64,000 nucleotides of DNA from Actinocatenispora sera (GTDB lineage: Bacteria > Actinomycetota > Actinomycetes > Mycobacteriales > Micromonosporaceae), in contig NZ_AP023354.1 of the NCBI RefSeq assembly GCF_018324685.1, forward strand, positions 2,170,001 to 2,234,000, read 5' to 3'. Within the stretch, counting starts at the first letter, position 1; each line of letters starts with the position of its first letter. A program made the translations under genes and the position numbers. The notes beneath the pieces were generated by a model, which was not told the DNA's origin, ran no database searches, and was given only the letters and a program-made list of their open reading frames with translations. Shown here piece after piece: positions 33,985 to 35,297 of this stretch.

Positions 33985-34025
33985 CACAAAGAGAGGACCC
34001 GGCGGAGTAGCCATCCGCCGGGTCC
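33985..34025 (-). terminator. terminator of the tRNA-like RNA array
   Basis: On the minus strand GGACCCGGCGGA (34025-34014), a 7-nt loop and the exact complement (34006-33995) form a perfect 12-bp stem followed by TCTCTTTGTG. This is a textbook intrinsic terminator. It begins 3 nt after the last recognisable tRNA-like segment, so it marks the end of the array transcript. Confidence 0.85.
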
Positions 34026-34028
34026 AAT

Positions 34029-34110
34029 GGGATTGCAACTGCTCTACCTGATTGAGCTACCGGCGCAACCGCCGAGGAGGACTCGAACCTCCAACCTGCT
34101 GCTCAAAACC
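34029..34110 (-). ncRNA. permuted tRNA-like RNA c
   Basis: Minus strand, in transcript order: GTTTTGA, anticodon-stem strand GCAGC (34102-34098), 5-nt variable loop AGGTT, T arm GGAGG-TTCGAGT-CCTCC (34092-34076), acceptor 3' strand TCGGCG, a 4-nt link GTTG, acceptor 5' strand CGCCGG (34065-34060), TA, D arm GCTC...GAGC with GG in the loop, A, anticodon-stem strand GTTGC (34039-34035). Acceptor 6 bp, D stem 4 bp, anticodon stem 5 bp (one G-U), T stem 5 bp all pair. The halves are in reversed order compared with a normal tRNA. The acceptor is capped by only 4 nt and there is no CCA, so ordinary charging looks unlikely. The terminator follows at once. Confidence 0.7.
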
Positions 34111-34152
34111 CTCGCCGACTTTGCCGCGTCGACACGTTTAAGAGCCGGATCA

Positions 34153-34261
34153 TCTTCACGACCCACGACTCTGCCATTGAGTCTACCGCCCGATGGGAAA
34201 CCGTTGCGGTGCAACGGTTTCGTTGGCCGGGCGGGCCGGATTCGAACCGGCAACCTGGGTC
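34153..34261 (-). ncRNA. permuted tRNA-like RNA b
   Basis: Best of the three. Order on the minus strand: anticodon-stem strand GACCC (34261-34257), variable AGGTT, T arm GCCGG-TTCGAAT-CCGGC (34251-34235), acceptor strand CCGCCCG (34234-34228), G then CCA (34227-34224), a 31-nt link with a 10-bp hairpin, acceptor strand CGGGCGG (34192-34186), TA, D arm GACTC...GAGTC with GG, GT, anticodon-stem strand GGGTC (34164-34160), then GTGAAGA. Acceptor 7/7, anticodon stem 5/5 and T stem 5/5 pair. GTGAAGA resembles an anticodon loop with U33 and GAA, but an isotype cannot be assigned. The encoded G-CCA means a mature 3' end could be made. Confidence 0.75.
34198..34220 (-). other. hairpin in the link of RNA b
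   Basis: AAACCGTTGC (34220-34211), loop ACC, and GCAACGGTTT (34207-34198) form a perfect 10-bp stem exactly between the CCA end and the acceptor 5' strand of RNA b. It would hold the two acceptor strands close, or act as a processing signal. Confidence 0.65.
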
Positions 34262-34334
34262 TACGTCCTGACTCCCTCGATTCGACACTCGACGAAATGC
34301 TGAAACTGGAGCGATAGCGTGAACGTGAGTCGGT

Positions 34335-34415
34335 CTCCGGGACTGCCTCTGCCAGTTGGGCTACCCCGTCACGAGTGACGGGAGGAGGGCTCGAACCTCC
34401 ACTGTGGACCCGGAG
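34335..34415 (-). ncRNA. permuted tRNA-like RNA a
   Basis: First of the array. Minus strand: CTCCGGG (34415-34409), variable region TCCACAGT, T arm GGAGG-TTCGAGC-CCTCC (34400-34384), acceptor strand TCCCGTC (34383-34377), ACTCGT link, acceptor strand GACGGGG (34370-34364), TA, D arm GCC...GGC with GG, then CCCGGAG (34341-34335). Acceptor 7 bp (one G-U), T stem 5 bp, and CTCCGGG pairs fully with CCCGGAG in place of the anticodon stem. The acceptor helix continues into the link (CGTCAC/GTGACG), leaving almost no loop. No CCA. The anticodon region is less tRNA-like than in b and c. Confidence 0.6.
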
Positions 34416-34422
34416 CCTGGAA

Positions 34423-34464
34423 CGCGCAGGATCCCTGCCTGCGCGACCCTGGTTCAGGCTGAAC
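34423..34464 (-). other. leader hairpins of the RNA array
   Basis: Two hairpins precede RNA a: GTTCA-GCC-TGAAC (34464-34452) and CGCGCAGG with CCTGCGCG around CAGGGAT (34445-34423, 8 bp, 7-nt loop). They resemble tRNA arms in size but do not complete a cloverleaf. Confidence 0.5.
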
Positions 34465-34499
34465 ATCAGTCTCAGTCTGCGCTCCTGTGGCGCGCGGCC

Positions 34500-34528
34500 A
34501 GCATAACCGGCGCCAGCAAGACGTTCGA
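34500..34528 (-). promoter_or_regulatory. possible promoter of the RNA array
   Basis: Minus-strand TCGAAC (34528-34523), 17 bp, TATGCT (34505-34500). The -10 is good, the -35 matches three of six. Transcription would start near 34493, about 80 nt before RNA a and 70 nt after the stop of the upstream co-oriented gene; the array could also be co-transcribed with that gene. Confidence 0.4.
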
Positions 34529-34565: not shown

Positions 34566-35297
34566 TCAGCCGAACAGGTAGCCCAGCACGCGCTCGCCGA
34601 CCTTGCGGTCCTCGACCTCGGTGCCGTTCGCGTCCTCGCGGGCGAACTTGACCGCCGCCTGCAGCTTCTCCACCCGGTCGATCAGCTCGTTGACCCGGCT
34701 GGCCGGCAGCGCACCGGAGAACTTCACGGTGCGCCAGTAGCCCACCGTCACGTCCTCGTGGTACACCTCGACCTGCGCCGGGTGCTTCTCGGTCGCCTCC
34801 GCCTTGACGTGGTTGCGCGGCACCTTCCGGGTCCGCAGCGTCTGCACCGGCTCGGTGGCGAAGCAGTCTGCGGACGAGTCGTAGTTCCACGACTCGGCCG
34901 CATCCAGCACCGGCAGCTTGCGCACGAACGTGTGCAGGTCGACCAGCTGCTTCTCCAGGAACAGCAGGTAGGTCACCGGCACCTCGGCGAGGATCGTCCG
35001 GCCGTCGACGACCACGTCGGCGCGGGCGACGCAGTTCGCCCAGTCCTTCGTCGCCGTCACGTCGAACAGCTTGGTGAGGATCCGGGTCGTCTCCCGGATC
35101 ACCTCCTCGGCCTTCACCTGAACCCGGGTCGACTCCGGCGGCAGCCGCTCGCCCTCCTCGTCCTTCGGCTGGTACGTCCGGGAGATGCCGGACAGCGCCG
35201 CCTGCTTCTGCAGGGTGTGGTGGCTCGCGGTGAGCTCGGCGAACGAGCGGCTCTTGACGCCCTTCTCCACGGCGATGATCTGGTTCAGCTTGGCCAT
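34566..35297 (-). CDS. conserved hypothetical protein next to the tRNA-like RNAs
   Basis: 243 aa from ATG 35297 (MAKLNQIIAVEKGVKSRSF). The frame is open upstream to 35396 but that part is Arg/Pro-rich and unlike the rest. The protein is soluble, mixed charge, no membrane segment; notable stretches are RTYQPKDEEGERLPPES, KDWANCVARADVVVDG, VTYLLFLEKQLVDLHTFV and KFSGALPASRVNELIDRV. I recall similar proteins in many actinobacteria and actinophages (a DUF7873-type family, from memory) without known function. It is co-oriented with and just upstream of the permuted tRNA-like RNAs, so an RNA-related role is a reasonable guess, not shown. Confidence 0.75.
   Translation of the reverse strand: MAKLNQIIAVEKGVKSRSFAELTASHHTLQKQAALSGISRTYQPKDEEGERLPPESTRVQVKAEEVIRETTRILTKLFDVTATKDWANCVARADVVVDGRTILAEVPVTYLLFLEKQLVDLHTFVRKLPVLDAAESWNYDSSADCFATEPVQTLRTRKVPRNHVKAEATEKHPAQVEVYHEDVTVGYWRTVKFSGALPASRVNELIDRVEKLQAAVKFAREDANGTEVEDRKVGERVLGYLFG

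Follow-up and report, generated by a model that had tools for sequence, protein, structure and literature searches.

The closest known RNA to the one analysed here is YrlA, whose Rfam model (RF02553) runs in the order T arm, acceptor hairpin and D arm, and in which a basal stem adjoins the anticodon-stem position. As described in excerpts of one source (PMC8394870), YrlA mimics tRNA with a single module (90–150 nt, bound to Rsr/Ro60), its basal stem is bound by Rsr, its tRNA-like domain is bound to PNPase, and the RNA is modified by DusA and TruB. In permuted tRNA genes of algae and archaea, the 3′ half likewise precedes the 5′ half and a loop joins the acceptor ends (excerpts of PMC3978253). 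Two-piece tmRNA has a permuted tRNA-like domain with the acceptor ends joined in the precursor, and its permuted form is probably matured by RNase P and tRNase Z (excerpts of PMC3985003).

The window (the whole 64,000-nt stretch of the Actinocatenispora sera genome that was analysed) contains a locus with the same order of parts. Comparison with relatives establishes, at the level of sequence, one noncoding RNA (about 350–500 nt) in which two tRNA-like domains, or three in this genus, stand in tandem, and shows that in genomes this RNA almost always accompanies the DUF7873 gene immediately upstream of it, a gene that the sequence-only reading of the locus had not mentioned. The features of the locus are as follows.

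33988..34485, minus strand: structured RNA, ends approximate, from the GGAGCGC start to the 3′ hairpin and T-rich tail
34566..35297, minus strand: DUF7873 (PF25283) gene (Pfam E 6e-121), next to the RNA on its upstream side; the product has 243 aa when read from the ATG of MAKLNQ
34505-34500, minus strand: candidate -10 element TATGCT, picked by eye
34454..34475, minus strand: 5′ strand of the helix enclosing module a (CTGAGACTGATGTTCAGCCTGA), a helix present in the RNAalifold structure of relatives and in the window fold
34424..34444, minus strand: extra hairpin GCGCAGG/CCTGCGC preceding module a, in the window fold; a similar hairpin occurs in L016 and L024
34335..34415, minus strand: module a, in which the stem CTCCGGG/CCCGGAG replaces the anticodon stem
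34400-34384, minus strand: T arm of module a
34383-34377 with 34370-34364, minus strand: acceptor of module a
34361-34345, minus strand: D arm of module a
34288..34330, minus strand: conserved linker between modules a and b, forming the 3′ strand of the module-a helix (alignment of relatives)
34159..34260, minus strand: module b, with the anticodon-position stem ACCCA/TGGGT and an inner hairpin
34251-34235, minus strand: T arm of module b
34234-34228 with 34192-34186, minus strand: acceptor of module b
34227-34224, minus strand: GCCA of module b, immediately after the acceptor 3′ strand
34183-34167, minus strand: D arm of module b
34123..34142, minus strand: conserved tail beginning CTTAAACGTG, the 3′ part of the helix enclosing module b (alignment of relatives)
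34029..34102, minus strand: module c, with T arm 34092-34076, a 6-bp acceptor (34075-34070 with 34065-34060) and D arm 34058-34041
33988..34025, minus strand: 3′ hairpin with a GGNNA-type loop (GGATGGCTACTCC) and T-rich tail

Re-reading of the sequence confirms that three T arms (T loops TTCGAGC in module a, TTCGAAT in b and TTCGAGT in c) and three D arms lie on the minus strand, as the sequence-only reading had reported, and that in a, b and c alike each T arm and acceptor 3′ strand precedes its own acceptor 5′ strand and D arm. The reported T stems (5/5 in all three), anticodon-position stems (5/5 in b and c, the latter with one G–U by eye) and pairing of adjacent acceptor strands (7/7 for a and 7/7 for b) also hold. 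The acceptor of c, given as 6/7, is register-dependent, because six consecutive pairs (UCGGCG/CGCCGG) form whereas a seven-base frame gives 3/7. Pairing in normal order had been said to fail, and it does: the acceptor 5′ strand of a matches the 3′ strand of b at 3/7 positions, and that of b matches the 3′ strand of c at 5/7. Ordinary or intron-split tRNA genes were rejected on the same ground and because ARAGORN finds no tRNA gene across the window.

Rfam at gathering scores also has no match across the window. Matches to sodF, SECIS_4, AS1890 and sul1, obtained at a permissive threshold, are weak and were discarded; they coincide with the terminator hairpin, a different hairpin or stretches rich in GC. 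The minimum free energy (MFE) of the window RNA (501 nt) is -228.2 kcal/mol, compared with -200.2 (sd 6.1) for shuffles (z -4.57; 0/100 shuffles), and the MFE structure includes all three modules and the long enclosing helices. The three units thus look like domains of one predicted structured RNA, rather than three tRNA genes. A coding tail after module b was considered and rejected: some relatives allow a peptide to be read there, but, as judged by eye, the frame does not survive the single-base insertions that distinguish relatives.

The elements proposed for expression fared unevenly. The promoter claim has in its favour the TATGCT element and is suggestive at most; a scan of 121 upstream regions from relatives gave a shuffle share of ≤0.1 in 16 and no qualifying site in 73. 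The hairpin that had been called a perfect terminator exists, but GGNNA is found in the loop region of this 3′ hairpin in 100/105 relatives; the hairpin is therefore probably part of the RNA, beyond a mere terminator. A GGNNA loop, as at 33988-34025 and in relatives, is unusual for a plain terminator.

DUF7873 is assigned by Pfam to its own family only. The AlphaFold2 model of the protein has a pLDDT of 93.7, and the protein is near-neutral (pI 6.4; 35 Lys and Arg, 37 Asp and Glu), with no recognised RNA-binding fold or motif. No match was obtained in PHROG, NCBIfam, PADLOC or PDB sequences, and three structure searches gave no confident fold match, which does not in itself prove a new fold. 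The term ‘DUF7873’ is absent from the open-access literature searched, and no description of this RNA was found in the titles, abstract openings and excerpts of the open-access papers listed on Y RNA/YrlA, permuted tRNA, tRNA mimics and two-piece tmRNA.

The linkage of protein and RNA was assessed in 150 genomes of the family, including that of the window, which were searched for DUF7873 and Ro60/TROVE. DUF7873 occurs in 80/150 genomes (at 81 places) and TROVE in 54/150. Permuted units were also sought 3′ of DUF7873 at 30 family loci by a strict scan, which required a fully paired T stem (5/5), an acceptor with 6/7 pairs or more, and a D arm; it finds one or more permuted modules at 30/30 and two or more at 29. 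R1, a covariance model of the module-1 domain built from 30 sequences, was run over the same 150 genomes and matches on the same strand within 700 bp downstream at 80/81 DUF7873 places, with a median distance of 50 bp (70/71 when the ten loci used as training sequences are left aside); the window match (G000:C1:2204287-2204447) scores 92 bits. The sole place without a match is in G064, where DUF7873 is truncated. Scores at the 80 linked places are at least 49 bits in 74 cases and 31.8–45.2 bits in six. Among the 150 R1 matches listed, which leave out weaker ones, 42 lie away from DUF7873, with a best score of 47.6 bits, and thus none of these reaches 49 bits. Apart from DUF7873 and frames that overlap it, no gene family recurs in more than 13/95 loci: the three largest neighbour clusters overlap DUF7873 or its RNA (by offset), and the next is found at 13/95 loci. 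In G067 (C1:3149087-3149410), a copy of the RNA scoring 135.9 bits adjoins a match to the last 34 positions of DUF7873 only; the gene there is perhaps decayed or frameshifted.

Conservation of the fold was examined in an alignment of 43 non-redundant arrays, drawn from 71 with an acceptor loop of ≤12 nt and a spacing of 135–165 nt and excluding the window genus. The 31 T, acceptor and D pairs set by tRNA rules are paired in 99.5% of 1332 cells, compared with 44–50% for slid versions of these pairs. Double changes are present at 24/31 pairs, including all seven acceptor pairs of module 1 and all seven of module 2, and 0/500 shuffles reach the observed values. The test suggested by the sequence-only reading, conservation of the paired strands in related genomes, thus has a positive outcome through the compensatory changes of these relatives. 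Permuted acceptors pair in 299/300 and 298/301 cells, whereas normal order gives 174/301, with no array at 7/7. RNAalifold, with no structure supplied, recovers the same T and acceptor stems and helices around each module, with compensatory changes at 44/57 pairs; for the first D stem, it picks a register different from the tRNA one. The three D pairs of the first module are invariant and are therefore neutral evidence. Conserved stretches also lie between and after the modules. Taken at sequence level, these data establish that the RNA tied to DUF7873 is conserved and covarying, and that its permuted tRNA-like domains stand in tandem.

Each domain has the order T arm, acceptor and D arm, with the acceptor stem closed into a hairpin and the anticodon-stem position continuing into the RNA body. 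Most relatives have two modules, mostly about 145–160 nt apart. A third module was seen solely in the window genus among the loci inspected: a third T arm is visible by eye in L016, L017 and L024, and the strict scan finds a third module in L032 and L078. Members of the genus with three modules include Actinocatenispora comari and A. rupis.

The view that the units are chance resemblances or decayed tRNA genes is supported by nothing except weak family scores in the window. The strict scan gave 0 matches in 569,706 bases of reversed sequence, a control that contains no tRNA genes, and in real sequence a few stray matches occur outside the arrays, some of them beside ordinary tRNA genes. Together with the covariation and DUF7873 linkage in relatives, the empty control leaves this view with a negligible probability, and it is already refuted.

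The locus had been described as an array of three circularly permuted tRNA-like RNAs. The permuted tRNA-like structure is upheld by covariation; the part that does not stand is a set of three separate permuted tRNA genes, because long conserved helices and linkers join the modules, two modules are usual and ordinary tRNAs are present. It is accordingly very improbable that the modules are spliced into ordinary tRNAs in the manner of red algae and some archaea, even though the order of halves and the acceptor pairing (299/300 and 298/301 cells) match such genes. The window genome has 69 tRNA genes (Rfam); ARAGORN, run on 42 loci from it, finds tRNAs for all 20 amino acids even without the Ro60 region, where an array next to Ro60 adds 28. 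The domains would thus be dispensable for decoding and, on structural evidence, they stay in one RNA, unlike the products of permuted tRNA genes. The ends of the modules enter long conserved helices rather than an anticodon loop, and such helices are present at the junction of the halves in the window fold. Bacteria are also not known to have the archaeal/eukaryal splicing endonuclease, which likewise stands against splicing.

The alternative raised together with the array, a YrlA-like tRNA mimic, is nearer, having the same module order, but the RNA scores below the Rfam YrlA cut-off and is not linked to Ro60 (41/80 DUF7873 genomes have no TROVE match). At a permissive threshold, YrlA is the only sub-threshold Rfam match that fits the structure in the window: module c, the most YrlA-like, scores 43.7 bits (E 2e-8), b 25 and a 15.7, against a gathering cut-off of 69. 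None of nine relatives attains the gathering score either (best 37.6 bits). In comparison with YrlA, the RNA here has two or three modules, a larger conserved body and a hairpin with GGNNA; CCA is present in 72/206 unique modules, and the partner gene is DUF7873. DUF7873 resembles Ro60/TROVE in being encoded near an RNA with the same kind of tRNA-like module, and differs from it in belonging to its own Pfam family and in having no confident fold match.

TROVE matches lie within 3 kb of 29 of the 42 listed R1 matches away from DUF7873; these look like Ro60 Y RNAs, which have the module in common. The 13 others among those listed (31–43 bits; for example, G033:C3:15283-15401 and G139:C1:8036406-8036543) have neither an adjoining DUF7873 gene nor TROVE within 3 kb, and are possible orphan mimics or noise. 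Across the 150 genomes, 39 have both DUF7873 and TROVE, 41 DUF7873 only, 15 TROVE only and 55 neither. Co-occurrence is above expectation (Fisher p 6e-4, uncorrected for kinship), and therefore the two systems may be related in role, although each is often found alone.

An orphan Y RNA of the YrlA type, serving a Ro60 protein encoded elsewhere in the genome, would account for the shared module order, the sub-threshold scores with c as the most YrlA-like module, the presence of a Ro60 gene in the window genome (about 0.83 Mb away) and the weak R1 matches near TROVE. It is improbable, because 41/80 DUF7873 genomes lack TROVE, as do two members of the genus that have three modules (G012 and G070), and because Ro60 has its own adjoining module. 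By analogy, the YrlA scheme may serve as a working model for the DUF7873 RNA, without membership in that family.

The Ro60/TROVE match of the window genome (G000:C1:3031695-3032572) is divided between open frames of 422 and 276 aa, and the gene may be frameshifted or mis-sequenced. Beside Ro60 and its YrlA-like module are 28 ordinary tRNA genes (positions 5110-8371 of L076, G000:C1:3028000-3040000). The idea that this locus is a long Y RNA array was rejected, since several weak YrlA matches fall in the normal 28-tRNA array.

The acceptor hairpins have a further property. CCA stands at tRNA positions 74–76 in 72/206 unique modules (45/117 first and 27/89 second modules, numbered by order of detection), compared with at most 4 at any other loop offset examined (0–7) and with 3/25 units found by the same scan at TROVE loci. 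In the window, CCA occurs in module b only. At the first loop position, A predominates in first modules and T or G in second modules, and the acceptor loops are mostly 6–8 nt. The chief clue to a possible opening of the acceptor hairpins is the exact position of CCA.

Opening by RNase P and 3′ nucleases would yield a mature 5′ end and an aminoacylatable CCA 3′ end at each module, so that the RNA would act as a split tRNA or a relative in kind of two-piece tmRNA, with two or three charged ends. The CCA counts (from related sequences, which are not independent), the bias at the first loop base and the probable maturation of permuted two-piece tmRNA noted above (excerpts of PMC3985003) all point this way. 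We nevertheless consider it rather unlikely: 134/206 modules have no CCA, the acceptor loops mostly measure 6–8 nt, and in four phage loci the second module, read by eye, follows normal tRNA order and its acceptor runs into the RNA body. The RNA also differs from two-piece tmRNA in having several domains, DUF7873 as a partner and no tmRNA match at gathering score in the window; elsewhere, the one tmRNA family score is a beta_tmRNA fragment in L181 (24.8 bits, against a cut-off of 84).

DUF7873 and its RNA extend beyond the family. A one-genome-per-species collection contains 564 stretches with DUF7873 relatives, and the best 80 of these 564 loci are mostly from Actinomycetota; other record titles among the best 80 name Chloroflexi or Ktedonobacterales, Gloeobacterales, Armatimonadetes and Acidobacteria, several of these records being metagenome-assembled genomes. 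Further relatives occur in IMG/VR contigs (17), in 50,697 phage records (73) and in 72,556 plasmids (4). Strict modules lie 3′ of DUF7873 at 77/80 loci from other genomes and in 14/17 viral contigs. Four of the six loci missed by the strict scan among these 97 have diverged or insertion-split modules (by eye); in the remaining two (L079 and L169), DUF7873 is present and no module is visible by eye. In a phylum sample, DUF7873 was found in 6/296 genomes. To judge from these sequence collections, the distribution is patchy, as for an accessory system.

Among named phages, strict modules lie 3′ of DUF7873 at 14/15 loci, and the exception (L179) has a T arm only. Annotated tRNA genes occur within 3 kb at 10/15 phage loci, a doubtful call in L188 being excluded; for two of these ten (L184 and L185), the sole annotated tRNA is a unit inside the RNA itself. 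Whole tRNA clusters are present at the locus in Racecar, GodonK, NiceHouse and Rhizobium phage TM21B. Loci L182–L185, from two Vibrio phages and two Rhizobium phages, have a permuted module 1 and, further along the one RNA, a tRNA-like unit whose parts follow the normal order. This unit is annotated as tRNA and lies within about 600 nt 3′ of DUF7873; by eye, its acceptor stem continues into the body of the RNA. The tRNA shape, not one topology, therefore seems to be kept. In the phage copies L178, L181 and L188, the module-1 D arm (TGGCGGAATTGGTAGACGC) resembles that of bacterial tRNA-Leu.

Patchy spread (6/296 genomes in the phylum sample, 80/150 in the family) and carriage by large phages inside tRNA gene clusters would suit a tRNA decoy, an RNA that soaks up or inhibits tRNA-cutting toxins or nucleases and so protects host or phage tRNAs. 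This role is unlikely, given that no gene family recurs widely beside the pair and that DUF7873 has no PADLOC match. The permuted modules also lack an anticodon loop and so would be no decoy for anticodon nucleases.

The explanation we favour, as moderately probable, is a new DUF7873–RNA particle that presents tandem tRNA mimics, with putative binding and function. DUF7873 would bind the conserved RNA body (enclosing helices, linkers and GGNNA hairpin), resulting in a stable particle whose tRNA-like heads would offer the tRNA elbow (T loop and D loop) to cellular tRNA-binding proteins. The logic would be that of Ro60–YrlA, but with a different protein and several heads, and it is by analogy that we infer particle formation, elbow mimicry and work on tRNA or structured RNA. 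The likely use would be to handle or guard structured RNA, tRNA included, during stress or an attack by phages; this would fit the patchy spread and the place in phage tRNA clusters; distribution is the evidence for this link. Against a particle stand the near-neutral charge of DUF7873 and its lack of a recognised RNA-binding fold or motif, and a pure elbow mimic leaves the exact CCA of 45/117 and 27/89 modules unexplained. The loci with DUF7873 but no visible module (L079 and L169, two of 97), the phage locus with a T arm only (L179) and the different register that RNAalifold picks for the first D stem also count against this reading.

A bolder version is possible but doubtful, namely an undescribed class of ribonucleoprotein in five phyla (by record titles) and large phages, in which a protein, perhaps of new fold, is built on an RNA that has several permuted tRNA heads, with acceptor hairpins that open into aminoacylatable CCA ends. 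If this were true, two or three tRNA mimics, charged or not, would be kept at set spacings on the particle, for instance for contact with ribosomes, RNase P or enzymes that handle tRNA.

DUF7873, a protein family of unassigned function, is tied to a specific RNA, and its function is therefore directly testable. To our knowledge, a permuted tRNA mimic was previously known only from Ro60 Y RNAs; the present RNA shows that such mimics also occur beyond the Ro60 system, as tandem copies, and in phages next to tRNA genes. The family also provides a natural set in which one tRNA-like domain occurs in two alternative circular arrangements, as well as a candidate case in which tRNA ends may be matured from within a permuted bacterial RNA.
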